DNA from: a virus | Virus record (IMG/VR): IMGVR_UViG_3300042879_000289 | Coordinates: 1 to 49,892 of that record | Strand: one strand, 5' to 3' | DNA length: 49,892 nt | Shown: positions 8,660-33,924 of the stretch, one piece after another | Numbering within the stretch: the first letter of the stretch is position 1 | Layout of the letters: each line of letters begins with the position of its first letter | Notes under the pieces: model-generated | The model's input: only the letters and a program-made list of their open reading frames with translations | Told to the model about the DNA's origin: nothing | The model's database searches: none | Translations under genes and position numbers: made by a program

Positions 8660-11148
8660 TACAGTCTCCCTAAGTTACGTTGCGCTGCCTGTTGCAGCTT
8701 TTCAGCGGTTCTCTGCTGTTCTGCCTGAAGTCGAAGCTCATCCACTGTCAGATCAGCCTCCTTCATTCTTTCCTTCGTCAGGTTGTTCTCTGCGTTCATA
8801 GCAACCTCAACCTGCAGTTTGTCAGTTTCCATCTTCATGTCAGCCTGATCCCTCATCGCCCGACGCTGCGTCTCAGCCATCGAGGCCTGCAGAACAGCCG
8901 CCGCCTCAGGGTCACGCATAGCAGCAGCCTGTAGGTTCGTCTGGGCAGCCTGCATCTGGGCAAATTGCTGGCTCAACTGCTGCAGGATCGGCATTACCTG
9001 AGCAAACACCTGCTGGGCATCCATCTTCACGTGAGCTGTAGCTACGGCAACCGTCTGGTCAATAGCCTTCGACATCTTCAGCTCGCCGTATTTCTGCAGG
9101 TCAATGCCCGTCTCACCCACAGCGTACTGAGTCACTTGGTTCTGATACCACAGCAAGATGTGCTGCTTTACGTGCTCAATGGTCTGTGGAATGCAGGCTC
9201 CAGCCATGATTGGGCTACCACCCAGCACTGGGTCAGTCGCAAAGTCCAAATGACTCTGGATGTGCGCCAGATGATCCTGATTCGGGTAGGCAAACGCCGG
9301 TTTACCCAAGGCCATCGCTGCATTCTCGTCAGCCGCATTCATCTCCACCGGCTTGATGGCGTTAGGCATCAGCTCATTGACGTTTGGCACCTTCATCTGC
9401 TTCAGAGCCCGGGACACGACAGCCCTCGGGTCAAACAAACTGGGGTACTTGTCCATGTACGCAATCACGGCCTGAGTCTGCGCCATGCGTTGCGTTTCGC
9501 TAAAGATGTGTGGGTCAGAGACAGGGATGACGTCTGAGTTCTTCTCAAAGTCCTCGCGCTCAATCGGCAGGTCTGCCACCACATCAGACTTCAGCTGGTC
9601 GTCCAGATACCAGCGGTTGATGCGCCCTAGAACCTGCAGAAGGCGCTTCTGAGACGTATGCAGACGGGCATGGATAGCAGAGAACACCGCAGCGCCCTGC
9701 TCAATCAGCGCCTGCGTAGTGCCTACAGGAGCCTGAGAGTTGATGTCAGCAATCTTCTCCTCTGACGTAGTAACAACACCCTTGGCAGCCGTCTGCAAGA
9801 AGCCTAGAAGCTGGAACAGCACAGGGCTCGGCGGGTTGAACGGCATGGGCATCGCCACCTTACGGATGTCGTCAATACCGGGAGCCGCCTCAATCTCAAC
9901 CACCTGCGTCACATCTACCTGATCACTCTGACCAGAGAGCTTGCCGCCCTTCAGTTTCAGCAGGGTTGCAGCATTGTTAATGTGGGCAGAGTCCAGCAAA
10001 GCACGGAGAGCACCCGTCAGAGCACCTGCCAAGTCGCCCATCAGATGAGGTAGGCCAATGGCGTAGGCACCACGCCACGGGATGAACTTGAACTCAATCA
10101 GCCAATCCAGCTTAGTCAGCGTCTCGTCGCCCTCTTCCCAGTTGCGATACAGGCCTAGAACCTTGTTGTCTAGCTCGTCAATCATCAGGATGTACGGAGC
10201 CATCTCGCCTTCAGTGCGACCGTCTTCCTTTAGCTCCATCCAGCAGTAGACATGGTAGACAGTCCTCAGACCATCAATGTTCTCGCTGATCGATACGCCT
10301 TCGATCTTGTCGTTGGCCTTCTCTGCCTCAGTCTCACTAGGCGTCATCGAAGCACGGATGAAGTTGACGTCACGGTACAGGCCAGAGTTAATACGCGCCT
10401 CAAACTCATACTGGGAGATGTTGTGCTCTTCAGTCACGCGCTGGGCTGTGTAGAAGTTCACAGACGAGGCAGGCAGGTGGATCTTGTCTACAGGGACAAA
10501 CTCAGCACAGGGGCGCTTCTTCTTCTCGTCAAACCACAGCTTCATGTACTGCGATCCACCCATCGGCAGCTGGGTCAGCATCTGCTCCTGCTCGTCACGG
10601 AACTCCTCAATCTGCTCCGTCAGCTGCCAGTTCATGTAGTCACGCTTGCGCTCAGCCCTCTCAGTCTTCTCAGGCGTTACATCCCCAAGAATCTTGGTGC
10701 GGGTCGGGCCGTCAGGCGGGAACATCTCCTTGATCGCACGGGCAGCAAAGTCCACGCAAGCCTCAGCCAGCACAGGATGCGCAACCTTCGAGGCACCAGT
10801 GAACGTAGCACCACCCGGGGCATCCTCACCCAGACCAGAGCGCTTCAGACCTTCTGCATACTTCTTGTCGCGCTCCTTGCGGTCTTCCTTGTCCTTGTCG
10901 ATTAGCTCAAGGTAACGCAAGCTGATGTCTTGCAGCTCACCGACGTCCAGCGTCTCTGCTAGGTTGTCGTAAAAGTCTGTGTCGTCCCTCGGGGTTTTGA
11001 CATCAAGGCTGACGATCGCTGAGCCATCCTCCAGCTCCTCGACATCTGACTCCTCCATGTCAATGTCAATCACAGCCCCGCCATCAGGCGTATTTGTGAT
11101 TCCCTCAATGAATCGACCAAACTCTGGATCTATCGGCATTTCAGGCAT
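8659..11148 (-). CDS. portal protein
   Basis: The protein has 829 aa, longer than typical 500-700-aa portals because of a long C-terminal coiled coil. Residues 95-165 contain a segment I recognise from podovirus-like portals (ASKVAHPVLAEACVDFAARA, then IKEMFPPDGPTRTKI). Residues 190-520 carry the wing and stem (for example WRGAYAIGLPHLMGDLAGAL). The last 150 residues are Gln/Ala-rich helices (LPILQQLSQQFAQMQAAQTN-like), a barrel-type extension as in P22-like portals. It would form the dodecameric DNA entry channel at one vertex. It follows the 1004-aa protein by 12 bases and precedes the capsid assembly genes. Confidence 0.85.
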   Translation of the reverse strand: MPEMPIDPEFGRFIEGITNTPDGGAVIDIDMEESDVEELEDGSAIVSLDVKTPRDDTDFYDNLAETLDVGELQDISLRYLELIDKDKEDRKERDKKYAEGLKRSGLGEDAPGGATFTGASKVAHPVLAEACVDFAARAIKEMFPPDGPTRTKILGDVTPEKTERAERKRDYMNWQLTEQIEEFRDEQEQMLTQLPMGGSQYMKLWFDEKKKRPCAEFVPVDKIHLPASSVNFYTAQRVTEEHNISQYEFEARINSGLYRDVNFIRASMTPSETEAEKANDKIEGVSISENIDGLRTVYHVYCWMELKEDGRTEGEMAPYILMIDELDNKVLGLYRNWEEGDETLTKLDWLIEFKFIPWRGAYAIGLPHLMGDLAGALTGALRALLDSAHINNAATLLKLKGGKLSGQSDQVDVTQVVEIEAAPGIDDIRKVAMPMPFNPPSPVLFQLLGFLQTAAKGVVTTSEEKIADINSQAPVGTTQALIEQGAAVFSAIHARLHTSQKRLLQVLGRINRWYLDDQLKSDVVADLPIEREDFEKNSDVIPVSDPHIFSETQRMAQTQAVIAYMDKYPSLFDPRAVVSRALKQMKVPNVNELMPNAIKPVEMNAADENAAMALGKPAFAYPNQDHLAHIQSHLDFATDPVLGGSPIMAGACIPQTIEHVKQHILLWYQNQVTQYAVGETGIDLQKYGELKMSKAIDQTVAVATAHVKMDAQQVFAQVMPILQQLSQQFAQMQAAQTNLQAAAMRDPEAAAVLQASMAETQRRAMRDQADMKMETDKLQVEVAMNAENNLTKERMKEADLTVDELRLQAEQQRTAEKLQQAAQRNLGRL

Positions 11149-14100: not shown

Positions 14101-14175
14101 TTCCTGCGCCTCCTTGCTGCCAGCGGGAAGTTTAGACAGCAGCTGCATTAACTTTGAGGGATTGGGCATGATCAC
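11161..14175 (-). CDS. 1004-aa polyvalent-like protein between terminase and portal
   Basis: This is a very large multidomain protein. Residues 1-130 are Ala-rich and contain MATGG. Residues 120-190 are hydrophobic and Gly-rich (LANTLGGLAFGRTVGTLGMP). Residues 300-570 are acidic and Tyr/Asp-rich. Residues 590-660 carry LAHVRLQDRVDDEGNKILYV and DEMQSDWHQEGRRHGY, a segment I associate with large polyvalent-protein domains found in phage and plasmid ejection proteins. Residues 650-740 are a coiled coil, followed by RVMKYAADNGYTRVGFSKAQ. The C-terminus has KTGGAVKMADGG, the motif shared with other virion proteins here. It overlaps TerL by 4 bases (ATGA). It is probably a virion-packaged protein delivered to the host. 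Its enzymatic activity is unknown. Confidence 0.7.
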   Translation of the reverse strand: MIMPNPSKLMQLLSKLPAGSKEAQEAARLEAELREAIRAAQYAPHTPSTATGRSALSDMKDILGSQEFPIRKMATGGQAFPLQEEFQAEVERRAARPRTRAGVPVEDTNVLGGALRGLANTLGGLAFGRTVGTLGMPADILEPTAATGAMIPMFGMAGMPSEISKALVQQFAPKGPDIPAPTSEYLLEKGLEKFKPPQEFEVSAKLGRFMPFDIAEMQAAGRKLKALQPTFTELMETGLERATAPTRMYAAPEDGAKLSKEEYSRMMREKYAAQNLAREEKKATAADLKPQEVKVPADQLGFYSPAEKAAANLKRNIGTGEAFLQDIKRAPDVSPDDLEFTGLERWLKGKKTVSKQEIQDYMNKNRLVLEEVEYRQGTSDIDEMKFPREGEVVDDYDGIQMRADDIVYDWDNYGHKSRDQIREEILDRYTPEEAEPLINSGRIDEMVDDAISETAYQMASDEYYDNPYRRWRNDTGYEIFGNDDVGYQIQDPRGRDITPSRGVYDFETAEGEVRQHGMDYGYVDEGETKYHDYQLPGGSNYREILIKTPGNERDKLRKELRSLDDALADETDPVERAQLQKQLDRVSEEFEMLPESYESSHWDEPNVLAHVRLQDRVDDEGNKILYVDEMQSDWHQEGRRHGYRSKESEIKMQQVLDMRDKKQMEVNELFRRQQLLKQEMVRSDKITNAAEIEKLNKLKDDFDVANKELKNLQEEYGKYKDMVPSGPFTDNWHKMALKRVMKYAADNGYTRVGFSKAQPQVNRWGTDVVAWEKAPSGGWRVTATEQRGGRAGNINLEDDARARGILQESRHHTVDNRDGLYATVAKIGRGKSEAELQKLTDRIWKQMQEKDAGIVAPREAGMKKFYDEELEGSLKKYANTYKGKYGQTTLDVPGEGRQTINYIDITPDVKKSTSKGQPYKTGGAVKMADGGAVHPAVEKFAASLPHPAVTEFENRVIDLGDMIAGGGAIDLSNKVVGSYAMGGAAYNTIPDVSDAEKMVQGPAF

Positions 14176-15608
14176 ACCGCATAAGGATTGACGCGCTTAG
14201 GCTTAACGTCAACGTAGTCATCGTCGTCATACTGCGGCGGCGGATCAATGTCAAGCCAGCCAGCATCGCGCAAGTATCTCAGAGCCTGTGTACAACTGTC
14301 TACGTAATCATCATGAGTTGATTCTGGGAAACTGCATATCTGGCTCACGAACCCTTCAGCCCAGTCCCTGACGTACCCCTTGCGCACTGAGCTCTCAGGT
14401 ATCCACACCCGCTTATGAGCAATGATGTTCGCTACGATGCTAAGACGCTGGATCTTATCGGCCTTGCCGGGGTTGTAGGCTCTCACCGGCAGGTGGGCTC
14501 TCTGTAAGTCTTGGATGAGCGATATACCTGCAGCCTTGTCTTCAATAAGCACCAAGTCAACCTTCTTGCCGCCGGTAAAGTTTCCTCTGGACTCGGCCTC
14601 GGGGTCAGAGCCATACGACACCTTAAACTCTTCAATGACCTTCGGGCGTAGATCCGGATACTGAAGTCGATCTTGCCACGCATCGATGAGCATGACCCCC
14701 ATCGGCCCGTCAAGTGGCTTAAATACTCCCCAAGTAGTAGCCGCCGTCGGGTCATTAACCGTCTTTTCGGTGTACGCACAGTCATAGCTTTGTAGGATGA
14801 ACTCGAACTTAGGAAACTCTTTGTTGGCAGGCCACAGCCTGAACATCTCGCGCTTCACAATCCCTGACTCTTCAGGGTCGATCAGCTCAGCCTCAATCTC
14901 CTGCCTGCCCAGCTTGGTGCCCTCATACTGCAGGATCTGGCGCTTGAAGTTGTCAGCAAGGTTGTTGATGTTGGCGTAAGTCGAGGCCCGGGTGATCACC
15001 ACATCGTCGCCCTCTCGGCCTACCAGATCCACGATCAGATCCTTCGGCCTTGGGGTCGTAGTGCAAAGCAGGCGCACCCGTGTGCCCAACCGCATACCAA
15101 ACTGGAGCATGTCCCACGCCTCGTCGATGTAGTCCCACGCCGCCAGCTCGTCTAGCCAGCCACCGTGGAACTGCGGCCCCCGGAAGCGCTCAGGCTCACT
15201 CGCCGGGATGCCCTTGATCAGGCTGCCGTTCACCAGCATCAGCTCGTGTAGCGCCTTGTTGTAGTCCTTAATCAGAGCTTGGGGGATAACGGACAGGAGG
15301 CCTGAGTCGCCCTCAAAGCAGGTGCCCCTGACGTCTGCAGAGGTAGGAGCTGATACTAGCCAGCGGGTCTTGGGTTGGCTCCATGCCCACCAGCCGAGCT
15401 CTTCAGCAGCTGTCCTAGTCTTACCTGCGCCACGGCCTGCAAGCATCAGCCAGATTGACCACCAGTCGCCATGAGGGCGGATCTGATGGGGGTGGGCCTT
15501 GATCAGCCAGTTGCTGCGCCATTCAAAGGCGGCGCGATATTCTGCCGGGAGGTTGGCATACTTCTTGTGAATCTCTGGGTCTTTCAGTAGCTCAGCTAGG
15601 TCGGTCAA
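14172..15608 (-). CDS. terL: terminase large subunit
   Basis: The 478-aa protein has an N-terminal ATPase with Walker A AGRGAGKT at residues 57-64, a Q/W-rich adenine-binding region before it (HGDWWSIWLML), Walker B WLDELAAW at about 151-158 (Asp153/Glu154) and a coupling-motif-like CTTTPRP near 190. The C-terminal RNase H-like nuclease begins at SYDCAYTEKTVNDPTAA (first catalytic Asp about residue 281), with a later LVLIEDKAAG carrying the second acidic residues. It powers DNA packaging through the portal. It overlaps the 181-aa gene by 17 bases and the 1004-aa gene by 4. Confidence 0.95.
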   Translation of the reverse strand: MTDLAELLKDPEIHKKYANLPAEYRAAFEWRSNWLIKAHPHQIRPHGDWWSIWLMLAGRGAGKTRTAAEELGWWAWSQPKTRWLVSAPTSADVRGTCFEGDSGLLSVIPQALIKDYNKALHELMLVNGSLIKGIPASEPERFRGPQFHGGWLDELAAWDYIDEAWDMLQFGMRLGTRVRLLCTTTPRPKDLIVDLVGREGDDVVITRASTYANINNLADNFKRQILQYEGTKLGRQEIEAELIDPEESGIVKREMFRLWPANKEFPKFEFILQSYDCAYTEKTVNDPTAATTWGVFKPLDGPMGVMLIDAWQDRLQYPDLRPKVIEEFKVSYGSDPEAESRGNFTGGKKVDLVLIEDKAAGISLIQDLQRAHLPVRAYNPGKADKIQRLSIVANIIAHKRVWIPESSVRKGYVRDWAEGFVSQICSFPESTHDDYVDSCTQALRYLRDAGWLDIDPPPQYDDDDYVDVKPKRVNPYAV

Positions 15609-17769: not shown

Positions 17770-17836
17770 CTCTCCTTGTTCGCTGTCCTGCACATGCAGT
17801 ACGTGTAAGATTAGGTTAAACAAACACCCTTGTCAA
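17770..17836 (-). promoter_or_regulatory. leftward promoter and repeated leader (copy 1)
   Basis: On the minus strand -35 TTGACA (17831-17836, perfect consensus), 17-bp spacer, -10 TAATCT (17808-17813, weak). The 5' leader contains GGACAGCGAACAAGGAGAG (17770-17788), which includes the Shine-Dalgarno of the 85-aa gene and matches the leader at 19694-19712 in 18 of 19 bases. The promoter overlaps the 3' end of the SDR gene. Confidence 0.6.
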
Positions 17837-18656
17837 CAAATATTTTGTCCATCGCAGAAATAATTGTTTCCATACTTGTAAGCGTCGGCTCCCAGCCAAA
17901 ATGCTCGTATGCGCGGCTTTCGCTGTAATACCAAGGCTTGAGTCCTGTGGTGCTCTTCAAGCTCTCCTGAGGGGCTTCTCGCACGATCTTGAGGCCATAC
18001 CGCTCCGTCATCTCCAACATCAGCTCATTGACTGACACTGTTTCTTTGCTGACAACATCAATCGCCATGTTCACAGCCGGTGCCCCTATGATTTTCTGGA
18101 TCAGGGCAGCTAGGTCATCAGCCCCGATGTAGTCCCGGATCATCAGATCGGTCTGGACGTTGAGGGGCAGCTTGTTCTGGATGCACTTGACCACTTGGCT
18201 CATCAGTAGGCCAGCTTCAGGGTTCACTGTTTCTGAGAAGTAACTAAACAGTCTGACGTCTACGATCGGCAGGTCAGGCAAGGCCCGGTGTCTAAGCTCT
18301 GCCATCAGCTTGGCGCTAGAGTAACGGTTAGGGATCTGATTGATGCCCACCACGGCAGGGCTGTGCCAGTCCACAGGGTTACTGAAGTCTGTACTGTACG
18401 CCGCACCTGAGCTAAAGAATATGTACTTTGTCTCAGGGATGTTTTGCACGTAGTCAAGAATCATGGAGTCGAACTTGACTGTCGTCTCTACGATGTCTTG
18501 ATCTCGGGCATTCCCAACGCAGTTGATGACGACGTTGTACCGCTGCGTCCCAAACTGATCCATGTTGTTACGGTCAAACAGGCTCAGGTTGTATGGCAGG
18601 CGCTTTGCCAAGTCTCCAGCTATCCAGCTTTTGCTGCCTATGATTGCTACGTTCAC
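17811..18656 (-). CDS. NAD(P)-dependent SDR epimerase/dehydratase/reductase, sugar-nucleotide type
   Basis: The 281-aa protein starts GTG at 18656, overlapping the upstream stop (GTGA). The N-terminal Rossmann segment MNVAIIGSKSWIAGDLAKRL carries a degenerate G-x2-G-x2-G. The catalytic triad of extended SDRs is visible as Ser in FSSGAAY (about residue 83) and Tyr112-x3-Lys116 in YSSAK. The C-terminal half has the substrate-domain pattern (MIRDYIGADDLAALIQKIIG; GWEPTLTSMETII). It resembles dTDP/CDP/GDP-4-keto-6-deoxysugar reductases. It is isolated in the leftward operon, but the genome also encodes RfbH and a TPP enzyme on the other strand. It may supply the final 4-keto reduction for that pathway (inference). 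Confidence 0.8.
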   Translation of the reverse strand: MNVAIIGSKSWIAGDLAKRLPYNLSLFDRNNMDQFGTQRYNVVINCVGNARDQDIVETTVKFDSMILDYVQNIPETKYIFFSSGAAYSTDFSNPVDWHSPAVVGINQIPNRYSSAKLMAELRHRALPDLPIVDVRLFSYFSETVNPEAGLLMSQVVKCIQNKLPLNVQTDLMIRDYIGADDLAALIQKIIGAPAVNMAIDVVSKETVSVNELMLEMTERYGLKIVREAPQESLKSTTGLKPWYYSESRAYEHFGWEPTLTSMETIISAMDKIFVDKGVCLT

Positions 18657-22160: not shown

Positions 22161-23501
22161 TCAATCAAAGCTTCTTGGTGTTGATGTTTCTCTCGTGCTG
22201 GGAGGCCTCCATTGAAACGCAAGGTTCTCAAATCTTGTTTGATTTCCTATGTACGTCAACGCCGTCGTCCCAATCTCGCCTTGCCTTTGCTTTGCTGTGA
22301 TGACTTCGCAAACGCCTTTGTCTGGTGAATCTAAGTTATAAACCTCGTCGCGGTAAAGAAAAATTACGGTTGATGCGTCTTGTTCAATAGAACCTGAGCT
22401 GGACAAATCGGACAAAATGGGGCGCTTGTTGTTGCGTTTCTCGCACTCGCGGTTTAGCTGAGCAAGTAACACGATTGCACAATCAAGTTCTTTTGCCAGC
22501 GCCAACAACCCACGGGTATAGTCTCCAATCTCATAAGCCTTGTTCTCTGCCTTGCTGCCAGTGATGAACGACAGCTGATCGATTACCAGCAAGTCCAGCC
22601 CAGCCTTACGTTTGATGAACCGTGCCTTAGACCTGATAGACAGCAGGTTGAGGCCTGTCTGGTCATCAATCCAAAGTTTTAAGGTCTGGGCCTTAGAAAA
22701 AGCAGCTGTCAACCGATCCCAGCTATGCTGATCGTTCTCATCAGGCTTGCGTAACCATGAGATAGGAACCCTACCCAGCGCAGCTATGTTTCGATCAATG
22801 ACTTGCGCTTTTGGCATCTCCATTGATAAAAACCCAGCGCTTCCCCACTCAGCCACATTTCTAGCCAACGCCAAACCAAAGGCTGTCTTACCCATACCCG
22901 GGCGAGCAGCCAGCACCGTCAAAGTACCACGCTCAATCCCGCCATCCAGTCTTTTGTCCAAGTCAACAAAACCGGTGGCAATCGGCTTAACCGTGCCATC
23001 CATCCGGGCCTGCAACAGCTCAACGTAGTTGGTCAGGGACTCTTGAAACTCCACCGGCTCCTGAGAACTTGCACTTGAGGAAATCAGGTCGAGCTTGCCA
23101 GCTAAGGCATCTGCCAGCTCAACTGCAGGCACCGTCCCGGCTTGAGCCTCAATCTCACGGCAAGCAGCCACCAATTTTCGGCGCTTTGAGTAGTCAATGA
23201 CTAAATCCGCATGGACGCGAATAGAGGCCGCTGAAGGCGTCGAAGACGAAAGTTGGTGTGCATACATCAACCCGTCTGAGATTTCGCCTTGTAGGGCGTC
23301 TGAGAGGCTTATAACGTCACATTGTTTGCCAGAGGTGATCTGCTCAACAATCTTGACGTAAATCTTACGGTTGTCAGAATTGTAAAAGTCTTCAGCGCGG
23401 AGGTCAGAAATTTTGTCTAAGGCCGAGTTAAAGTTGAGCAGCGCACCCAAAATCGCCTGCTCGGCTTGCATAGAAAAAACTTGCGGCAGGTCGTTGATCA
23501 T
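22161..23501 (-). CDS. dnaB: replicative DNA helicase, DnaB family
   Basis: The protein has 446 aa. The N-terminal DnaB domain (residues 5-100: SMQAEQAILGALLNFNSALD, AEDFYNSDNRKIYVKIV) is followed by the RecA-like motor: Walker A AARPGMGKTAFG at about 198-209, FLSMEMPKAQV, Walker B LDLLVIDQLSFI at about 302-313, then VLLAQLNRECEKRNNKRPIL and DLSSSGSIEQDASTVIFLYR, the conserved H3/H4 motifs with the arginine-finger region. It unwinds DNA at the phage replication fork. The start overlaps the DnaT/DnaC-like gene upstream by 4 bases, which supports a loader-helicase pair. Confidence 0.95.
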   Translation of the reverse strand: MINDLPQVFSMQAEQAILGALLNFNSALDKISDLRAEDFYNSDNRKIYVKIVEQITSGKQCDVISLSDALQGEISDGLMYAHQLSSSTPSAASIRVHADLVIDYSKRRKLVAACREIEAQAGTVPAVELADALAGKLDLISSSASSQEPVEFQESLTNYVELLQARMDGTVKPIATGFVDLDKRLDGGIERGTLTVLAARPGMGKTAFGLALARNVAEWGSAGFLSMEMPKAQVIDRNIAALGRVPISWLRKPDENDQHSWDRLTAAFSKAQTLKLWIDDQTGLNLLSIRSKARFIKRKAGLDLLVIDQLSFITGSKAENKAYEIGDYTRGLLALAKELDCAIVLLAQLNRECEKRNNKRPILSDLSSSGSIEQDASTVIFLYRDEVYNLDSPDKGVCEVITAKQRQGEIGTTALTYIGNQTRFENLAFQWRPPSTRETSTPRSFD

Positions 23502-24277
23502 GCTGCCTCCTTGTGAACCTTCTCAGCCTGTTGACCAGTCGTGGTCAAGGCATAGCCATTGTCAGTGGCATACCAAAGCTTGAACCAGTTTCCACGAACC
23601 GACTTGTTGAAGGCCAGAGGCCAAGACTTGTACTTTTTGGCATCAGGAACTGAGTACCGAGCTTTGAACTCTAGCCAATGCAACTTTAGAAACTCCGAAG
23701 GTATTCCAGCCTTCTCGGCATATTCAAAAATCGGATCGTCTTCAGGTATTGCCTTCTTGCCAAGCTCCTTGCAGTTTTGCAGGTAGGTCTTCAGGGCAAT
23801 GGCGTGAGAGCCCCCTTTAGGGGGTTTGGGGGTTTTATTTATTGAAGATGAAGATGAAGATGAAGGGGTTGGTTTTTGCTTATCCTCATGGTTAACCTTC
23901 AGCTTATCCTCTTTTGCCTGCATGAGGTTAGGGTTCCCACCAAGCTTACCGCCTGCAGCCCTTATTTTCCGCAGGTTTTCGTCCCTAATCATTCTGCGAC
24001 TTACGATGACGCCATCTGATGTCAAATCATAAACGCCTGCATGTTTGAGTTCTTGGAGCCAACCTTCAACAACCTCTAAGGTTTCTCCAACCATACGTGC
24101 AAGGTTGATCGGAAGGATAACCTTATCGCCAACCTTTAGATGACCATAAGGATTACCTTCATGCATGTAGCAGATCATGTCTATCCACAGTCCACGAGCT
24201 CCTGTTGAGCAGGATCTGAGTGCTGTATCTCTGAGCCAGTCAGATGGATAAAACTGGAATGATGGTCGTTTAGGCAT
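23498..24277 (-). CDS. replication initiator/helicase-loading protein (DUF1376-like N-terminus)
   Basis: It starts ATG at 24277 (MPKRPSFQFYPSDWLRDTAL) with GGAG six bases upstream, inside the end of the HNH-AP2 gene. The 259-aa protein has an N-terminal winged-helix-like domain (ALRSCSTGARGLWIDMICYM, then VSRRMIRDENLRKIRAAGGK), a Ser-rich linker of eight serines near residue 145, and a C-terminal helical domain with WPLAFNKSVRGNWFKLWYA, as in phage primosomal proteins that deliver DnaB. It overlaps the DnaB gene by 4 bases. The role is inferred from fold and position. Confidence 0.75.
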   Translation of the reverse strand: MPKRPSFQFYPSDWLRDTALRSCSTGARGLWIDMICYMHEGNPYGHLKVGDKVILPINLARMVGETLEVVEGWLQELKHAGVYDLTSDGVIVSRRMIRDENLRKIRAAGGKLGGNPNLMQAKEDKLKVNHEDKQKPTPSSSSSSSINKTPKPPKGGSHAIALKTYLQNCKELGKKAIPEDDPIFEYAEKAGIPSEFLKLHWLEFKARYSVPDAKKYKSWPLAFNKSVRGNWFKLWYATDNGYALTTTGQQAEKVHKEAA

Positions 24278-24779
24278 CTTCAACTCCAGAAAATGCAAAC
24301 GCTCCAAAATACTTTGACGCTGCCTGTCTATAGGCTAGTGAAGCATCTTCAGAAGTTTCAAAAACCCCTAAAGTAATTTCTTTCCTGTTTACCATTATTC
24401 TGGCGCGCCATTTTTTTATGTCTCTTCTATAACTAACGCCCTTGATGCCCGATTGATTGTTTTTCTTTATTTTCTGATTGGCAGAATTTTGTGATTGATC
24501 CCCAAGTCGAAGATTTGTTATTTTGTTATTGAGCTTATTACGATCAATGTGATCGATATTTTTTGCAGGCCATTCTTTATGAACATAGAACCATGCAAGC
24601 CTATGGGCCAAAAATCTTTGTTCCTTAATTTGCAACATCCAATATCCTTGAATGTGCTTCGCGCCCGCAACTTTCCCATTCAGTCTTTTTTTGTTTCCTT
24701 CTAAATTTTTCCAAAAAAATAAACCAGATTCAGGATCGTAATCCAAAATACTTGTTAAAAAATCATGAGATATGCTCAT
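24270..24779 (-). CDS. HNH-AP2 homing endonuclease
   Basis: The 169-aa protein has NUMOD4/HNH features: a YDPESGLFFWKNLEGN N-terminus, the core LAHRLAWFYVHKEWPA, IDHIDRNKLNNKITNLRLGD (His-Asn pair), followed by a C-terminal AP2 DNA-binding domain (SGIKGVSYRRDIKKWRARIM, TLGVFETSEDASLAYRQAA). It is markedly AT-rich. It sits between the YdaS-like gene and the helicase-loading gene and overlaps the latter start by 8 bases. Its ATG follows GGGGGAATT directly after the U tract of the 24.8-kb terminator. Confidence 0.92.
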   Translation of the reverse strand: MSISHDFLTSILDYDPESGLFFWKNLEGNKKRLNGKVAGAKHIQGYWMLQIKEQRFLAHRLAWFYVHKEWPAKNIDHIDRNKLNNKITNLRLGDQSQNSANQKIKKNNQSGIKGVSYRRDIKKWRARIMVNRKEITLGVFETSEDASLAYRQAASKYFGAFAFSGVEDA

Positions 24780-25464: not shown

Positions 25465-26229
25465 GTGATTGACGGACGCCCAACCATCATGATTGGTACA
25501 CCTGCTTACGGCGGTGCCATGTTCATGGAGTACGTAGACAGCTTGGCTAGAAACCTGTCCTTCCTTGAGCAGAAAGGTATCCGCACCCGCTGGCAGTTCA
25601 TGAATAAGGAGGCCTTGATTACCCGTGCCCGTAACGAGATCGCCAGATACTTCCTTGACGAGACGCAAGACGACTACCTGATGTTCATTGATGCTGACAT
25701 CTGGTTCCCTACTGACGGCATCTACAAGCTGCTAGAACACAACAAAGACATGGTGTGTGGCGTCTACCCTAAGAAGTTCTTGTTCTGGGATCGCATCCGA
25801 GAAGCAGCCCTGCGCGGAGAGAAGGACATTGACAAGTTTGGCTGCAGCTACGTCCTGAATGCCGTGGCTGACGATGGCGACAAGGTTCCTGTTGGTGAAG
25901 ACGGTCTGGTCGAGACGCTCCACGGTGGCACAGGATTCATGCTGATACACAGGAACGTGTTCAAAGCCCTGAGATTCAAGGTTCCTACCTACCGTACCAG
26001 CCTGATCACAAACCCTGCTAATGGGCAGTTCCTAGCTCCTTTGACTAGAGAATTTTTTGGCACATCCATCACAGAGCTAGGCCTACTGTTGTCAGAGGAT
26101 TATCACTTTTGCGAGCTGTGGAAAAAAGAGGGCGGCAAGATATACGCTGACCCAACAATAGAACTACGTCACGTAGGACAGCATGTCTATGCAGGCGACC
26201 TGATGAGAGCAGGGAGGAACAACACGTGA
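25465..26229 (+). CDS. GT-A fold glycosyltransferase (paralogue 1)
   Basis: The 254-aa protein starts GTG at 25465 with GAGG upstream. The N-terminal nucleotide-binding segment is PTIMIGTPAYGGAMFMEYVD. LITRARNEIARYFL and FIDADIWF (Asp76-Ala-Asp78) form the metal-binding DxD motif. CGVYPKK, HGGTGFMLIHRNVF and the C-terminal LLSEDYHFCELWKKEGGKIY are shared with the gene at 26947, pointing to tandem duplication. It transfers a sugar from a nucleotide donor. Donor and acceptor are unknown. No membrane segment. Confidence 0.82.
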   Translation: MIDGRPTIMIGTPAYGGAMFMEYVDSLARNLSFLEQKGIRTRWQFMNKEALITRARNEIARYFLDETQDDYLMFIDADIWFPTDGIYKLLEHNKDMVCGVYPKKFLFWDRIREAALRGEKDIDKFGCSYVLNAVADDGDKVPVGEDGLVETLHGGTGFMLIHRNVFKALRFKVPTYRTSLITNPANGQFLAPLTREFFGTSITELGLLLSEDYHFCELWKKEGGKIYADPTIELRHVGQHVYAGDLMRAGRNNT

Positions 26230-26954
26230 AGGTAGCAGTAATAACAAGTACACGGGGCAGGAAGACAATCCAGAAGGCTCATCTGTCTATCCTCAATCAA
26301 ACCTACCCTGCAACTCACTACGTCTTTGCTCACGGCAAAGACTGCTGGGATGCAGTGGACAAAAATATGGACGGATGCAATGCACAAATTGTTTATCTAC
26401 CTCGCGCTAATGGTGGCGGTGGTTTTGGTATGGCTCCCGTTTTTGCTATGGCTGGGTATTGTGTTACCGAAGACATAGTGTTCTACCTTGACGACGACAA
26501 CTGGTACGAACCTGACCACATTGAATCTCTAGTAGAAATCATTGAGAAGAACGACCTTGGCTGGGCGTACAGCTTACGCAAGATCGTAGACCACGAAGGC
26601 AACTGGATCTGTGACGACAACTGTGAGTCTTTGGGGGCTCACCATAACTCTCACCACCAGCACCTTGTAGACAACTCCTGCTATGCCGTCAGGACTGACG
26701 TAGCGAGGCGCTATGGCTACGCTTGGTATGTGCCCGTCATCTCAGATAGGAACTTCTTCAAGGTGCTTGTAGAGGCTGGGATGACCTTTGGAGCCACTGG
26801 TAAACACTCTGTGAACTACAGCCTGTCTCTTGATGGAACTGGAGGCATGACGAAAGAAAAGTTTCTTGCAAACAACGAGTTAAACCAGCAGAATTACAAA
26901 GGTATTTCCCCTTGGCTTCTTCAATCAATCTTCAAACAGGAACAACATGCCTAA
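26226..26954 (+). CDS. glycosyltransferase family 2-like
   Basis: The 242-aa protein starts MKVAVITSTRGRKTIQKAHL, the GT2 nucleotide-binding strand. DIVFYLDDDNWYEPDH carries Asp89-91 as the DxD-equivalent, followed by YAVRTDVARRYGYAW and FFKVLVEAGMTFG. It overlaps both paralogous GT genes (4 bases upstream, 8 downstream), implying tight co-translation. It is probably an inverting transferase that adds a residue to a lipid- or protein-linked glycan. Substrates are unknown. Confidence 0.82.
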   Translation: MKVAVITSTRGRKTIQKAHLSILNQTYPATHYVFAHGKDCWDAVDKNMDGCNAQIVYLPRANGGGGFGMAPVFAMAGYCVTEDIVFYLDDDNWYEPDHIESLVEIIEKNDLGWAYSLRKIVDHEGNWICDDNCESLGAHHNSHHQHLVDNSCYAVRTDVARRYGYAWYVPVISDRNFFKVLVEAGMTFGATGKHSVNYSLSLDGTGGMTKEKFLANNELNQQNYKGISPWLLQSIFKQEQHA

Positions 26955-27711
26955 GATTTATATAGGAACCCCAATGTATGGGGGCCAGTGCTTTGGCTTC
27001 TACGCTCAGTCACTGCTGTCACTGAACAACATACTGCGTGACCACAAGATTGACTCCATGATCAGCTTCATGTTCAACGAGTCTTTGATCACCCGAGCAC
27101 GTAATGCTCTGACTCACACTTTCCTGAAGTCAGACTGCACTCACCTGTTCTTTATTGACGCAGACATCAAGTTCAACCCTCAGGATGTTCTCGGGATGCT
27201 GCTGGCAGACAAGCCGATCATCTGCGGAATCTACCCAAAGAAAGAACTGAACTGGGAGAACGTAGCTAACGCAGCCAAGGCAGGCGTTCCTCATGACAAG
27301 CTGCGTTACTACACAGGCTCCTTCGTGGTCAATCTGGCAGGCTATGTAGACCAAGTGACCGTCCAGCACGATAAGCCTTGTGAGATTTGGAACGGCGGCA
27401 CTGGCTTCATGATGATCAAGCGTGAAGTGTTTGAGCAGCTGGCAGACAAGGTTCCTGAATACACCAACGACTCTACAGACCTCTCTGGTGCCATCCAGCA
27501 TCAGGAAAAGATCAAAGAATACTTTGCTACCTCGATTGAGCCGGGAACTAACCGTCTCCTGTCTGAGGACTACCATTTCTGCCGCATCTGGAGAGAGATC
27601 GGCGGGAAAGTCTGGGCTGCTCCGTGGGTACATCTAGGCCACGCAGGCACCCATTTGTTTGATGGAGCGCTGGCAACCCCAGCCTACCCTAACCCTGTGG
27701 AGAGCAGATGA
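26947..27711 (+). CDS. GT-A fold glycosyltransferase (paralogue 2)
   Basis: The 254-aa protein has the same length and block order as the gene at 25465: IYIGTPMYGGQCFGFYAQSL, SLITRARNALTHTFL, FFIDADIKF (Asp71-Ala-Asp73), CGIYPKKELNWENV, NGGTGFMMIKREVFEQL, LLSEDYHFCRIWREIGGKVW. Roughly 40% identity by eye, so an old duplication with likely different substrate use. It overlaps the following 59-aa gene by 4 bases (ATGA). Confidence 0.82.
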   Translation: MPKIYIGTPMYGGQCFGFYAQSLLSLNNILRDHKIDSMISFMFNESLITRARNALTHTFLKSDCTHLFFIDADIKFNPQDVLGMLLADKPIICGIYPKKELNWENVANAAKAGVPHDKLRYYTGSFVVNLAGYVDQVTVQHDKPCEIWNGGTGFMMIKREVFEQLADKVPEYTNDSTDLSGAIQHQEKIKEYFATSIEPGTNRLLSEDYHFCRIWREIGGKVWAAPWVHLGHAGTHLFDGALATPAYPNPVESR

Positions 27712-28716: not shown

Positions 28717-29017
28717 AAACAGTGTTGCTGCAAAAATCCGCAAGTACAAAAAAGAAAACCCTTTGGCTAGTCGTGAGGCTATTGCAGAAGCCACTGGGGC
28801 TACCTTACAGCGAGTCAGTAATGTTTTGAGCATAGCTCGTCGTAAGGCTGGCCTAGCTAGAAAACGTAAAGCTTCTGTCGGAGTAAAGAAACCGAACAAC
28901 AGTGCCGGAGTACGCTTAGATGGCGGATATTATTCCTTGGAGAAGCTCAAAGATATTGTCAAAGCCTTGGAATTACTTAGCAAAATCTCAGGTGTGGCGA
29001 AAGCGAACAATGACTAG
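28703..29017 (+). CDS. basic HTH protein
   Basis: It starts ATG 28703 (MTTHKNSVAAKIRKYKKENP) with GAGGAGAAGAAAG before it. An upstream in-frame ATG would have no such site. The 104-aa protein has LASREAIAEATGATLQRVSN, VLSIARRKAG (HTH), a basic linker RKRKASVGVKKPNN and a C-terminal helix (LEKLKDIVKALELLSKISGV). Likely a small DNA-binding regulator of the early operon. It overlaps the GT10 gene by 8 bases. Confidence 0.72.
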   Translation: MTTHKNSVAAKIRKYKKENPLASREAIAEATGATLQRVSNVLSIARRKAGLARKRKASVGVKKPNNSAGVRLDGGYYSLEKLKDIVKALELLSKISGVAKANND

Positions 29018-29981
29018 ACCTATCAAAGTCGCAGTACAGAACAAGTATGAGTTCATTACAAAGGACGGATACCTGTTCAACAATCCCCAGAGCGACATCG
29101 GTCACAACCTTTTGAAGGGCTGGAATGACCTCAAACGTGTTGGAGAAGAGAGAGGCATCTTATTCTTCACGCTTGACCAGATTCAGAAGGAAGAGATCGA
29201 TGTCGCTATTTTTATGGACAGGCCAGACGTTGATCCAGAGCTGACGCCTAACACCAGAAAGATCCTGATGATCTATGAGCCTGACATGCTCATCCCGGGT
29301 AATTGGGACAGGGATTATCACATACGCTTTGACAGGGTTCTTACGTGGAATGATGAGCTACTAGACAACGTAAAGTATTTCAAGAACAACTTTACGACTG
29401 ACTTTGATCTGAACAACCTGAACGTGACTGAAGAAGACTTCAACAGTCGCAAGATGTTGTTCATCATGAACACAGTCAAGAACAACCCTCACCCTGACTG
29501 CCTGTACGGACATAGAGTCTTTGCCTCTCAATACTTTACAAGACAAGCCATCTTTGACTTTGACATCTATGGTCGTGGTTGGGACATCCGTCAGTTTCCT
29601 ACCTACAGAGGCCATGTAGAGAACAAGATGGAAACCATGAGGAAGTACAAGTTCTGTCTGGCGTATGAGAACTGCAGACACGCTGTGGGATACATCACAG
29701 AGAAGATGATTGACTGCATATCTGCAGGGGTTGTACCCATCTACTACGGCGCTCCTAATGCTGCAGATCACATCCCAGAGGGCTGCTTTATTGACGTCAG
29801 AAAGACTGACGACTACGGGAAGATCCTAGACACCATGCAGCAAATGACCTATGACCAGTACATGGGGCACATGCAGGCCATGAGTGACTTTGTTCATTCT
29901 GAGAAGTCTGAGCAGTTCAAGAATAGTTTCTTCGTAGACAACATGATCAATCACATACGGGACGTCCACAATGCGGTTTGA
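29010..29981 (+). CDS. GT10-type (alpha-1,3-fucosyltransferase-like) glycosyltransferase
   Basis: It starts ATG 29010 (MTRPIKVAVQNKYEFITKDG). An ATG at 28920 would overlap the HTH gene in another frame. The 323-aa protein has the GT10 core FCLAYENCRHAVGYITEKM (Glu220, Asn221, then Tyr-Ile-Thr-Glu-Lys) and AGVVPIYYGAPNAADHIPEG, the nucleotide-sugar binding block of alpha-1,3/4-fucosyltransferases, with the N-terminal GT-B half before it. Donor is probably GDP-fucose or a related deoxysugar. No membrane anchor. It would extend a glycan in the cytoplasm. Confidence 0.82.
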   Translation: MTRPIKVAVQNKYEFITKDGYLFNNPQSDIGHNLLKGWNDLKRVGEERGILFFTLDQIQKEEIDVAIFMDRPDVDPELTPNTRKILMIYEPDMLIPGNWDRDYHIRFDRVLTWNDELLDNVKYFKNNFTTDFDLNNLNVTEEDFNSRKMLFIMNTVKNNPHPDCLYGHRVFASQYFTRQAIFDFDIYGRGWDIRQFPTYRGHVENKMETMRKYKFCLAYENCRHAVGYITEKMIDCISAGVVPIYYGAPNAADHIPEGCFIDVRKTDDYGKILDTMQQMTYDQYMGHMQAMSDFVHSEKSEQFKNSFFVDNMINHIRDVHNAV

Positions 29982-31203
29982 GCCGGGAGTGACCTTTATT
30001 CCAGCCTCTGGGCAAGTCATTGGAGAACTGGAGAAGGAGTACATGAGGAAGGTTGTGGACTCTGGCTGGCTGACAGCTGGCAAGTTCAATGACACCTTTG
30101 AGCAGACCCTGAAAGACTTTATGGGGGTCAAGGCAGTCAGAACCTGTAATTCAGGTAGTTCTGCCAATCTCCTAGCGTTTACAGCCCTGACAAGCCCTAT
30201 TCTTGGGGACAAGGCTATCCAGCCGGGAGATGAGGTCATCACAGTCGCCTGTGGCTTTCCTACGACCATCAACCCTATCCTGCAAAACGGCTGTGTCCCT
30301 GTGTTCTTGGACGTCAACACGACTCTGAACATCAACACAAACCAGCTGGAACAGGCCCTGACCAGCAGAACTAAGGCTGTGATGATTGCTCACACCTTGG
30401 GGAATCCGTTCAACATGGATCTGGTGGCTGAGTTCTGCAGGAAACACAAGCTCTACCTCATAGAGGACTGCTGTGACGCCCTAGGAGCCCGTTGGAGAGG
30501 CCGTAATGTCGGGACTTATGGGGATGTAGCCACCCTGTCCTTCTTCCCGGCACACCACATCACGATGGGTGAGGGTGGGGCTGTCCTGATTAACAACGAG
30601 AAACTTGCCCGAGCCGTTGAGTCCTTGAGAGACTGGGGCAGGGATTGCTGGTGCATCCCGGGCAAAGACAATACCTGTGGACAGCGGTTCTGCCAAAAGC
30701 AGGGTGAGCTGCCCTATGGCTACGACCATAAGTACATCTTCAGCCATCTTGGATACAACCTGAAGATTACAGACGTACAGGCTGCCTGTGGCCTCGCACA
30801 GCTCTCTCAGGCCCCTAAATTTATCGAGGCAAGGCAAGAGAACTACGCCTACCTGAAAGAGCGCCTAGGGGGCTATGAACAGCTCTGGCTGCCCTCTGTG
30901 TATCCAGATGCAGAGCCCTCTTGGTTTGGCTTCCCCATCACCCTAAACCCGAACGCAGACATCAACCGCAATGACATGGTTGCTTACCTAAACGATAACA
31001 AGATAGGTACACGGTTATTGTTTGCAGGCAACGTCACAAAGCAGCCGTACATGAAGGGCAGGGAGTACAGGGTCATTGGAGACTTGAAGAACTCAGACCT
31101 TGCGATGAACAACCTGTTCTGGATCGGGGTTCAGCCTGCTCTGACACGAGAGATGCTGGACTACACAGCGACGAAGATTGAAGAATTCTTAGGACATTTC
31201 TAA
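29971..31203 (+). CDS. rfbH: RfbH-type CDP-4-keto-6-deoxyglucose 3-dehydratase (E1)
   Basis: The 410-aa PLP/PMP enzyme of the DegT/DnrJ fold starts MRFEPGVTFIPASGQVIGEL. SGSSANLLAFTALTSP and the FFPAHHITMGEGGAV block carry His195 where aminotransferases have the PLP lysine, as in RfbH/E1 and ColD. The [2Fe-2S] motif of E1 is complete: Cys168-x57-Cys226-x1-Cys228-x7-Cys236 (RDWGRDCWCIPGKDNTCG), which ColD lacks. It therefore should remove the 3-OH of CDP-4-keto-6-deoxyglucose, needing an electron donor that is not encoded here. It overlaps the GT10 gene by 11 bases and the TPP gene by one (TAATG). Confidence 0.9.
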   Translation: MRFEPGVTFIPASGQVIGELEKEYMRKVVDSGWLTAGKFNDTFEQTLKDFMGVKAVRTCNSGSSANLLAFTALTSPILGDKAIQPGDEVITVACGFPTTINPILQNGCVPVFLDVNTTLNINTNQLEQALTSRTKAVMIAHTLGNPFNMDLVAEFCRKHKLYLIEDCCDALGARWRGRNVGTYGDVATLSFFPAHHITMGEGGAVLINNEKLARAVESLRDWGRDCWCIPGKDNTCGQRFCQKQGELPYGYDHKYIFSHLGYNLKITDVQAACGLAQLSQAPKFIEARQENYAYLKERLGGYEQLWLPSVYPDAEPSWFGFPITLNPNADINRNDMVAYLNDNKIGTRLLFAGNVTKQPYMKGREYRVIGDLKNSDLAMNNLFWIGVQPALTREMLDYTATKIEEFLGHF

Positions 31204-32210
31204 TGAGAGTAGCTGACTGGATTGCAAACTACTTATGGGATATAGGCGTCTCCCGTGTCCACGGCCTCATGGGTGGAGGGGCTGCAGGCCTAAACGACGG
31301 CTTTATCAAACGCAATGGGATTGAATACATCTGCTACCACCACGAGCAGGGCGCAGGTCATGCAGGCGTAGGTGAGGCTAAGTACACAGGGAAACTCTCT
31401 GTCGTCAATCCTACGACTGGCTGCGGGGGCACTAACTGCGCCACTAGCGTCTTGAACGCCTATCAGGATGGTGTGCCCGTCTTATTTCTATCAGGCAACG
31501 TCAAGCTTGAGAACACTGCTCGTTGGGTAAACAACAAAAGTAACGTCAGAATTAGGCACTACGGAGCTCAGGAGCACGATATTGTCAGCACTATGCGGTC
31601 AATGACTAAGGCTTCGTACTTTGTAGACAGGCCTGAGCTTGTTGAGCATGCCATCCAGAGCGCCATCCATCTGGCGACATCAGGACGTCCCGGCCCTGTT
31701 TGGGTAGACATCCCTGCCAATATCCAAACGGCACAAATGCCAGAGCTGAAGAACTACAAATTTGCAGACAAGGAAGCAGAGCCTATTGACCCTTACGCCG
31801 TATGGAAGCACATCTACGTAAGCAACCGGCCTCTAGTCATTGCAGGCGTAGGCATCCGTCAGGCAGGGCAGGTAGAGCAGTTCATCCAGTTCGTAGAGAA
31901 GTACCAGCTTCCCTTTGTGACGACCTACGGAGCTCAGGATTACGCCGCCTATGACCACCCACTGAACATCGGCACCCCGGGTGTTAGGGGCAACAGGGCC
32001 GGCAACTTTGCCATGCAGAACGCTGACCTTCTCCTCATCCTTGGCACCTCGCTAGGCTCTACGGTCGTCGGCTATGACCCCAAGCAGTTCAACCCTACGG
32101 CTTACAAAATCTACGTGGACATTGAGCAAGACGAGCTCAATAAAGACATCATCCCGGTGGACTTGAAGATAGAAGCCAACATCAAACAATTCTTGGGAGC
32201 CATGCTATGA
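31203..32210 (+). CDS. TPP-dependent enzyme, Pyr and central domains (acetolactate synthase/YerE-like)
   Basis: The 335-aa protein MRVADWIANYLWDIGVSRVH, GLMGGGAAGL is the Pyr domain with the catalytic glutamate Glu48 in ICYHHEQGAGHAG, then LSVVNPTTGCGGTNCATSVL and GRPGPVWVDIPANIQ. Residues 190-335 form the central DHS-like domain (RPLVIAGVGIRQAGQVEQFI, LLLILGTSLGS). The ThDP-binding domain is missing here and is encoded by the next gene. ThDP enzymes of this family in 3,6-dideoxysugar clusters (YerE) add an acetyl unit from pyruvate to a 4-ketosugar. That activity is inferred from the RfbH neighbour. Confidence 0.82.
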   Translation: MRVADWIANYLWDIGVSRVHGLMGGGAAGLNDGFIKRNGIEYICYHHEQGAGHAGVGEAKYTGKLSVVNPTTGCGGTNCATSVLNAYQDGVPVLFLSGNVKLENTARWVNNKSNVRIRHYGAQEHDIVSTMRSMTKASYFVDRPELVEHAIQSAIHLATSGRPGPVWVDIPANIQTAQMPELKNYKFADKEAEPIDPYAVWKHIYVSNRPLVIAGVGIRQAGQVEQFIQFVEKYQLPFVTTYGAQDYAAYDHPLNIGTPGVRGNRAGNFAMQNADLLLILGTSLGSTVVGYDPKQFNPTAYKIYVDIEQDELNKDIIPVDLKIEANIKQFLGAML

Positions 32211-32935
32211 CACGGGAAGAATGGGTAGCAAAGTGCCAGCACTGGAAGGCTAAATGGCCTGTGATGCAGCCAGAATACTTGGACGACACCCACGGTCTAA
32301 ACATTTACGCTGTGCTAGACGCCATCAGTAATCACTCCTCAGAAGATGCTGTAATCATGTGTGACGCCGGTAGTGCCTTCTACATGGTTCCACAAGCCTT
32401 CAGGTTTAAGAAAGGCCAGAGGCTAGTCATGAGCCAGTCCCAAGGGGATATGGGCTGGGCCTTGCCTGCTGCGATCGGGGTAGCTAAAGCAGGCGCTAAG
32501 CAAGTCATCTGCATCGTAGGCGACGGTAGCTTCATGTCTAACATGCAGGAGTTGGCAACCATCCGTGAGCACGACCTGCCGATCAAGATCATCATCCTGA
32601 ACAATCGTGGGTATCTCAGCATCAAGAACACACAGTCTAAGTTCTACGGCAACGTCCACGGTGTAGACAGTGACACAGGTGTTTGGTTCCCTGACTTCCT
32701 TCAACTGGCAGACGTATTCCACATTAACGCTGTCAAGGTCTGGGGTAATGCAGTCATGAACAAGCATATGCCTCAGGTTTTTGAGACAGTGACACCCTAC
32801 ATCATGGATGTTCTGTGCCTGCAAACCCAGCAAATCCTGCCATCTCAGTCGTTCAAAGACGGCAAGCAAGCCCCTCTACATGACATGATGCCCTTCTTGT
32901 CTGACGAGGAGATGGCTCAGGAGCTGCTTATATGA
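32207..32935 (+). CDS. TPP-dependent enzyme, diphosphate-binding domain
   Basis: The 242-aa protein overlaps the previous gene by 4 bases (ATGA). The ThDP motif is complete: VGDGSFMSNMQELATIR (Gly-Asp-Gly at 105-107) and LNNRGYLSIKNTQSKFYG (Asn-Asn at 132-133), 25 residues apart as usual. QSQGDMGWALPAAIGVAKAG is the preceding conserved block. With the 335-aa partner it totals 577 aa, the size of a normal single-chain acetolactate-synthase-type enzyme, split exactly between domains. The two must assemble because the active site uses residues from both. Confidence 0.82.
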   Translation: MTREEWVAKCQHWKAKWPVMQPEYLDDTHGLNIYAVLDAISNHSSEDAVIMCDAGSAFYMVPQAFRFKKGQRLVMSQSQGDMGWALPAAIGVAKAGAKQVICIVGDGSFMSNMQELATIREHDLPIKIIILNNRGYLSIKNTQSKFYGNVHGVDSDTGVWFPDFLQLADVFHINAVKVWGNAVMNKHMPQVFETVTPYIMDVLCLQTQQILPSQSFKDGKQAPLHDMMPFLSDEEMAQELLI

Positions 32936-33924
32936 TCCAGTTCCATAGGTATTCAGCCATAGACGCAGACAGACAGGCTGCTATAGACGCTAGGATGTAT
33001 CTATGGGGCAGGCTGTCTGAGAAAGAGGTCTTGGAAAGACTTCCTAAGGAACTACCTAAGAACTGGTTCTACAGACAAGAGATTGTTTGCTGCTTGGGAA
33101 GACACCTAGCCTTCAAAAAGTACGACATAGAAGAGAAAGAGTGGGAGCTGTGTAGAGGGCTAATCCATTATGCAGACACCATTTATGCTGACAACCCTGA
33201 AAAGCGTGAGCTTTACTACCAGCCCAGAAACTCAGGGCTATTCTCTGTCATTGAGAACATCATAGTTGCAGAATTTTATGCAACGCAACTAAACCACAAG
33301 CTTGTGATTATTGGAGACGGTAACTGGTGGAACTATGATGAGGAGTTCTCTGCCATCTTTCCTTACAGGGTCAAGTATGGGGTCAAGCCTAACATTGACT
33401 TTGATGCCATGAGGAACAACATATTTAATGCAGACCTGACAACTATCAATCAGTTCTACACATTCAAAAGACACTCTTACCAAAACATCCTGAGGTCTGT
33501 CTTCAAGATAGTTGACTGTGGAGACGTTACAGGATCTTGCCTCTTCTTCTTTAGGGGTGGAGACAAGCTACTGACAGAGACTATCCTGCCGCCTGACGAC
33601 ATCATTCGTGCTGACATTAAAGCTGCTTCCCGTAGGCACAAGCTGACTTACCTGCTGTCAGATGACGGACAACTAGCCAAGAAAATCGCTGCTATGGATG
33701 GCTCGATTATTAGCTTAGTTACAGACAATAAGCAGGGCTACCACCATGTGCCGGGACAGAAGATTTCTTGTTTACCTATCCTTCAGAACTACGTCATGCT
33801 GGCAACCTGCGAAGAAAGCATCTCTTGCCCCTCTGCTAACTTAGTCAACGCAGCTCATTGGTCTAGGGATGCAGAGTTCATCTACCCTACCTTCAACCCT
33901 GTCTATAGGTACGCACTTATATGA
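32932..33924 (+). CDS. putative glycosyltransferase, GT23/POFUT-like features
   Basis: The protein has 330 aa. No family is certain. Residues 105-145 (SGLFSVIENIIVAEFYATQL, HKLVIIGDGNWWNYDEEFSA) look like a first Rossmann-like half. FFFRGGDKLLTE near residue 208 resembles the H-x-R-R-x-D-K donor-binding motif of alpha-1,6- and protein-O-fucosyltransferases, followed by LTYLLSDDGQLAKKIAAMDG, a second strand-helix unit with an acidic pair. ATG overlaps the TPP gene stop. Context (GT and deoxysugar genes) supports a transferase. The specific class is a guess. Confidence 0.5.
   Translation: MIQFHRYSAIDADRQAAIDARMYLWGRLSEKEVLERLPKELPKNWFYRQEIVCCLGRHLAFKKYDIEEKEWELCRGLIHYADTIYADNPEKRELYYQPRNSGLFSVIENIIVAEFYATQLNHKLVIIGDGNWWNYDEEFSAIFPYRVKYGVKPNIDFDAMRNNIFNADLTTINQFYTFKRHSYQNILRSVFKIVDCGDVTGSCLFFFRGGDKLLTETILPPDDIIRADIKAASRRHKLTYLLSDDGQLAKKIAAMDGSIISLVTDNKQGYHHVPGQKISCLPILQNYVMLATCEESISCPSANLVNAAHWSRDAEFIYPTFNPVYRYALI

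Follow-up and report, generated by a model that had tools for sequence, protein, structure and literature searches.

Based on gene content, phylogeny and comparison with related loci, the phage analysed here probably carries the distal half of a pathway for a CDP-linked, branched 3,6-dideoxyhexose, in which the thiamine diphosphate (ThDP) module is exchangeable and the precursors come from the host. Branched-3,6-dideoxysugar chemistry is likely, and its donor, product and target remain unproven in the absence of biochemical data.

The sugar cassette and its phage

The virus contig IMGVR_UViG_3300042879_000289 (49,892 bases; analysed over its whole length and hereafter called the window) is a genuine phage. 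Its structural and replication genes lie on the minus strand and most of the putative sugar genes on the plus strand:

4813-5727, minus strand: capsid/protease
8659-11148, minus strand: portal
14172-15608, minus strand: large terminase
17811-18656, minus strand: SDR with a Rossmann start and the motifs SSGAAY and YSSAK, candidate branch or keto reductase, homologous to the SDR found in relatives after tppC or its replacement
22161-23501, minus strand: DnaB
25465-26229, plus strand: gt1, GT2-like glycosyltransferase (PHROG 1574)
26226-26954, plus strand: gt2, GT2 glycosyltransferase
26947-27711, plus strand: gt3, GT2/Anp1-like glycosyltransferase (PHROG 1574)
28920-29981, plus strand: gt10, glycosyltransferase of the GT10 fucosyltransferase family; by homolog comparison, the start may be 29010
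29971-31203, plus strand: rfbH, E1-type PMP/[2Fe-2S] NDP-6-deoxy-4-hexulose 3-dehydratase, assigned by NCBIfam score, matches to solved E1 structures, His195 and four cysteines
31203-32210, plus strand: tppN, N-terminal and middle domains (TPP_N and TPP_M) of a split YerE-like ThDP carboligase, with catalytic Glu48
32207-32210, plus strand: ATGA stop-start overlap at the tppN/tppC split site
32207-32935, plus strand: tppC, C-terminal ThDP-binding domain (TPP_C) of the split YerE-like carboligase, with GDG-x25-N at residue 105
32932-33924, plus strand: x330, no Pfam match, predicted fold like GT23/FUT8/NodZ/POFUT fucosyltransferases

By terminase and portal, the nearest named kin is MW202545 (Manatee Spring; 69% and 61%), followed by the Caulobacter phages RW, KcrB, RLK and GB2A (46%). 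The layout of MW202545 resembles that of the window; its genome gave no ThDP match in the full match list, and the portion of its record that we considered has no annotated sugar genes. Therefore, the sugar genes appear to be accessory in this phage type. An HNH homing-type endonuclease gene (24270-24779, minus strand) adjoins the replication genes.

A reading of the window from sequence alone had proposed that rfbH encodes a 3-dehydratase rather than a sugar aminotransferase, and this proposal held. The protein scored 648.8 bits against the NCBIfam RfbH model NF011936, above the curated equivalog cutoff of 423, and matched the solved E1 structures 3bcx/3bb8 with an E-value of about 1e-160, whereas the match to ColD was much weaker (about 1e-47). 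In the motif SFFPAHHITMGEGG, His195 occupies the position of the PLP lysine, and Cys168, Cys226, Cys228 and Cys236 match the Fe-S pattern C-x57-C-x1-C-x7-C. Judged by score and residues, the protein is a true E1-type 3-dehydratase; that it dehydrates CDP-4-keto-6-deoxyglucose is inferred. The open reading frames of rfbH, tppN and tppC, all on the plus strand, were recovered where the sequence-only reading had placed them, and the proposed translational coupling of rfbH to the ThDP enzyme was borne out by a 1-nt overlap with tppN. Among named phages, ThDP matches were all distant (below 33%) and partly represent bacterial DNA in phage records; the best match to RfbH (58%) also came from one such record. 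Separately, IlvB or RfbH genes in some records of the phage collection, e.g. OR851175 and AFYI01000003, look bacterial, suggesting contamination.

The ThDP enzyme, its split and its slot

Automatic annotation would call the ThDP pair an acetolactate synthase and assign it to branched-chain amino acid auxiliary metabolism, an interpretation that we consider practically untenable. Its support is that the best NCBIfam matches are acetolactate synthase models; however, these matches are far below the cutoffs (the N-half reached no more than 182 bits where at least 509 is required), with the halves being short for such models. In a careful tree, the pair stood with its homologs from viruses and cells, with JanthE and with PpYerE (structure 5ahk), apart from IlvB, IlvI, Ilv2 and Gcl with support of 100/99, and forcing the pair to join the acetolactate synthases cost 128 log units (AU p 9e-17). 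On this basis, and given the RfbH context, we rejected acetolactate synthase. A phylogeny against YerE and IlvB had been set beforehand as the test that could refute a YerE-type pair, and it did not do so. The best solved relative is 8rph, i.e. JanthE, a YerE-like enzyme (PMC12188165; PMC12247030). Identity to characterised enzymes is low (31.5% to JanthE, 26% to PpYerE), which counts against the pathway as proposed here; aldehyde-ketone ligation onto a deoxyketosugar and FAD binding are only inferred from its kin and neighbours.

The enzyme of the window consists of two proteins of 335 and 242 amino acids, with the break between the middle and the C-terminal domain. An NTGA overlap between the halves was found in 40/40 related loci (39 ATGA, 1 TTGA), and both halves, compared with their nearest relatives, showed a dN of about 0.15 and a dS above 1.8 or saturated. 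Because the overlap is kept throughout and dN lies well below dS in both halves, the split is not a sequencing frameshift; a programmed frameshift was rejected on the same grounds and for want of a slippery heptamer at the junctions, which were inspected by eye. None of the 28 split pairs in the tree has lost the catalytic Glu or the GDG motif; that the halves assemble into one enzyme is an inference. These pairs, which come from phages of ~60 kb and from contigs of up to 337 kb (a terminase check was done on some of the large contigs), form a single clade (SH-aLRT 99 in the wider tree) whose sister group is unsplit viral enzymes. Among cellular homologs, 76/80 are unbroken and the remaining four represent contig ends or broken frames. 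The candidate split cellular copy L165 was discarded, since it has a gap and a shift of frame, as if the gene were broken.

A different type of split, separating the N-terminal domain from the middle and C-terminal domains, occurs near RfbH in 11 viral loci (L098, L104, L113, L114, L115, L121, L124, L127, L132, L136, L138), which fall in two separate places in the tree. Splitting of YerE-like genes thus seems to be a virus-specific habit that has arisen at least three times in this sample. Characterised YerE-like enzymes are single polypeptides of ~590 residues, a trait that the pair in the window does not meet; as this is a property of the characterised members and not a defining one, in contrast to clade membership and motifs, we call the pair a variant. 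The sequence-only reading, correct as to the coupling with rfbH, had not stressed the two-gene nature of the enzyme and had missed that the split is conserved.

In the relatives, the slot between rfbH and the SDR gene holds one of three modules: a split YerE-like pair (L002-L008, L010, L011, L014, L028), a fused YerE-like enzyme belonging to a different clade (L081-L084, L087, L094) or a transketolase encoded by two genes (L080, L091, L092, L095). In the window, the split YerE-like pair follows rfbH, but the SDR gene is located elsewhere. The DNA of L083 and L095 is 92-97% identical until 10 bases before the end of rfbH, shares nothing across the module (9230-11017 and 9236-10931, respectively) and resumes with an 87% match at the very start of the SDR gene, placing the breakpoints at gene ends. 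The same swap pattern was observed between L094 and L080 (94% before the module, then 91%), and in the comparison of L006 or L007 with L092, module and SDR differ together. On the RfbH tree, five module changes were counted (minimum two), and sister pairs with unlike modules are supported at 100/99, 98/94 and 96/93. These results suggest that phages alter the sugar coat of the host, or their own, by exchanging one enzyme. We lean, by a modest degree, towards a modular branching system with a constant frame of RfbH, SDR and glycosyltransferases and a single exchangeable ThDP slot for these three modules, swapped between near-identical phages to change the sugar antigen during infection, and with YerE repeatedly split in viruses only.

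The cassette as a whole has probably moved between phage lineages, as judged from sequence identities: RfbH (about 67%) and the split ThDP halves (63-81%) are far more similar between the window and its relatives than the portal family (only about 31%) or the terminase (about 39% over the C-terminal part), and gt1 reaches up to 95%. This gene is 80-95% identical in several phages with ~31% portal identity and only ~40% in others, consistent with recent transfer or very strong constraint.

The gene following the ThDP module encodes an SDR of 300-323 amino acids in 18/18 relatives' loci tested. The SDR of the window shares about 33% identity with these proteins (E 3e-40), and its motifs are intact; its location outside the rfbH-tppN-tppC operon, unlike in the relatives, and this limited identity both count against the proposed pathway. 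Both this gene and slot swapping had escaped the sequence-only reading. Of the yersiniose pathway genes, those for RfbH, YerE and a reductase thereby all have a counterpart, with the reductase role of the SDR inferred. The ketoreductase step of yersiniose formation was described as uncharacterised in 2016 (PMC4753412), and the SDR is the strongest candidate for the enzyme completing the branch by reduction.

Precursor supply, substrate and destination of the sugar

The context of the cellular homologs agrees with the proposed CDP-3,6-dideoxy chemistry, as they adjoin rfbF, rfbG and rfbH. In Methylophilaceae LSUCC0401, the gene order is rfbF-rfbG-rfbH-aminotransferase-yerE (fused)-SDR, with rfbH confirmed by family score and rfbF and rfbG read from sequence; two other cellular loci encode a CDP-glucose 4,6-dehydratase at 498 and 518 bits (cutoff 278). 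Of all 80 cellular loci, many of which are short, 46 yielded rfbH, 45 rfbF and 40 rfbG, and a crude Hcr probe, which is a weak test, detected no E3 nearby. Conversely, viral loci fetched by RfbH alone contained a ThDP carboligase within 6 kb in 47 of 62 cases (42 YerE-type, 5 transketolase); these 62 loci are related to each other and are not independent draws.

In agreement with the sequence-only reading, the window lacks a cytidylyltransferase, a 4,6-dehydratase and an E3 reductase. No nucleotidyltransferase (PF00483) reached the cutoff in about fifty viral records (controls 14/14 positive), and no E3 reductase (Fer2) was found in 25 (controls 12/14 positive). CDP-glucose 4,6-dehydratase was likewise not detected at cutoff in 20 viral records, with only 1/14 controls passing, as expected for a rarer enzyme; none of the window's 60-kb relatives yielded it. 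Two relatives, L092 and L084, have perfect repeats at their ends, of 123 and 127 bases, respectively, which suggests that their genomes are complete, and in both of them the cytidylyltransferase, E3 reductase and CDP-glucose 4,6-dehydratase were not found. Because the upstream genes are missing even from these apparently complete genomes, the phage likely taps a host CDP-sugar pool, as had been proposed; the host is unidentified and the pool unverified. The occurrence of rfbF, rfbG and E3 in one genome, as in the yersiniose pathway, is not met by the window or its relatives, and without an E3 reductase, E1 must borrow host electrons, a further point against the pathway.

Upstream supply may differ in larger phages, whose clusters include a dTDP-glucose 4,6-dehydratase-like enzyme (299 bits, cutoff 365). 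In L009 (5526-16229) and similar large phage contigs, the sugar cluster comprises RfbH, an aminotransferase, a split YerE, an SDR, a 4,6-dehydratase, an HldE-like kinase and a fused PDH-E1-like ThDP protein. A class I aminotransferase gene lies between rfbH and yerE both in a cellular operon (L218, 8826-9995) and in large phages (L009, 6845-8014); its possible roles are supply of the keto-acid donor and amination of the branch.

We propose that host enzymes would provide CDP-4-keto-6-deoxyhexose and electrons, and that the phage RfbH would remove the C3 hydroxyl. The two-subunit YerE-like enzyme would then decarboxylate an alpha-keto acid, probably pyruvate, and attach the C2 unit at the 4-keto carbon, after which the SDR would probably reduce the resulting ketone to give a yersiniose-like product, which the phage glycosyltransferases would attach to a glycan. 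Exchange of the ThDP gene for another YerE-like enzyme or a split transketolase would change the branch, leaving RfbH, SDR and glycosyltransferases in place.

The five transferase-type genes reported previously could be recovered, as three GT2-like enzymes (two of them weak), one GT10 and one GT23-like enzyme by predicted fold only. The predicted model of x330 (pLDDT 72, i.e. moderate) matched GT23 fucosyltransferases with an E-value of 8.5e-6 and a TM of about 0.4, and its assignment is tentative; a pattern scan retrieved no relatives of x330, although relatives exist in L003, L004, L010 and L028. Elsewhere in the phages L081, L082 and L091, a Gmd-like GDP-mannose 4,6-dehydratase and a second SDR are encoded, possibly for GDP-fucose supply to GT10/GT23-like enzymes.

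That GT10 and GT23-like enzymes usually use GDP-fucose and not CDP sugars is a point against the pathway. It could indicate a GDP- or dTDP-linked substrate and a colitose-like or other branched sugar, a reading to which the Gmd-like and second SDR genes of some relatives and the dTDP-glucose 4,6-dehydratase-like enzyme of the large phages lend some weight. We consider it unlikely, given that RfbH is far nearer to the CDP-specific E1 than to ColD and keeps its Fe-S cysteines, and that the cellular neighbours are rfbF and CDP-glucose 4,6-dehydratase. Still less credible is that RfbH, making a plain 3,6-dideoxyhexose, and the ThDP pair, serving something else, are independent passengers: they are separate enzymes, and other genes intervene in some phage groups, but they are immediately coupled in translation and recur as neighbours in viruses and cells. 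Moreover, the ThDP enzyme is replaced in its slot only by other C-C ligating ThDP enzymes, which is our strongest argument that it acts on the product of RfbH.

As to the destination of the branched sugar, the same chemistry might serve virion glycosylation, with the sugar placed on phage proteins instead of host LPS or capsule. This is possible but doubtful: the five glycosyltransferases have no obvious lipid-carrier partner, a GtrA flippase-like protein (PF04138) being absent from 18 viral records, and cytoplasmic proteins are conceivable targets, whereas the cassette genes lie among plus-strand early-type genes opposite the structural genes, and the cellular relatives sit in rfb-type clusters. 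Several phages glycosylate their DNA, and the cassette is situated amid early genes; even so, decoration of phage DNA seems very remote, since no thymidylate synthase-type hydroxymethylase was found in 18 viral records, and we rejected hypermodification on this basis. GtrA-type seroconversion was rejected by the absence of its marker from 18 viral records. Known YerE products are LPS sugars (PMC12247030). The host envelope is the inferred target, only weakly favoured over the virion by strand and early-gene position.

Relation to known systems

The kinds of enzyme involved are known, and we did not find the phage-borne distal pathway, the virus-specific splits or the swapped branching slot in the accessible open-access literature, where a search for a phage paper on YerE or branched-sugar synthesis returned none. 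Such systems are easily missed, because one survey counts viral K01652 as amino-acid metabolism, listed alongside viral rfbG (PMC8226683), and contigs carrying LPS-type gene islands were left out of a global ocean survey (PMC11360552). If the proposed pathway is true, phages go beyond the transfer of existing sugars known from serotype conversion; they make new carbon skeletons and alter them by swapping one enzyme. It would also mean that viral "acetolactate synthase" calls can mislead, that the conserved SDR is a candidate ketoreductase for yersiniose formation, and that nature offers a series of ThDP ligases for probably the same ketosugar, which would be useful for biocatalysis.

The closest known system is the yersiniose pathway of Yersinia and other Gram-negatives (RfbF-RfbG-E1/E3-YerE and a reductase), with which the phage shares an E1-type RfbH followed by a YerE-like ligase and an SDR. 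Whereas rfbF and rfbG adjoin the cellular homologs, the phage has only the distal half, two genes encode its YerE-like enzyme, and other ThDP enzymes take the place of this enzyme in the slot of some relatives. The phage system may therefore work like the yersiniose pathway without being a full copy, with rfbF, rfbG and E3 possibly supplied by the host. With the YerE-like ThDP lyases YpYerE, PpYerE, JanthE and ErwE, the pair shares a common clade, the catalytic Glu, the ThDP motif and the rfbH neighbourhood; it differs by its break, at ~30% identity, and JanthE has CDG in place of the GDG of the phage pair. The split transketolases of the phage slot resemble, in being encoded by two genes, the transketolase of the miharamycin/amipurimycin clusters, which was proposed to branch a ketosugar (PMC12247030), with the difference that the phage copies adjoin RfbH. 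As in phage serotype conversion (gtrA-gtrB-gtr), phage genes are expected to alter a host surface glycan; in contrast to that GtrA-dependent system, the cassette of the window would make a new nucleotide sugar and not only transfer an existing one.
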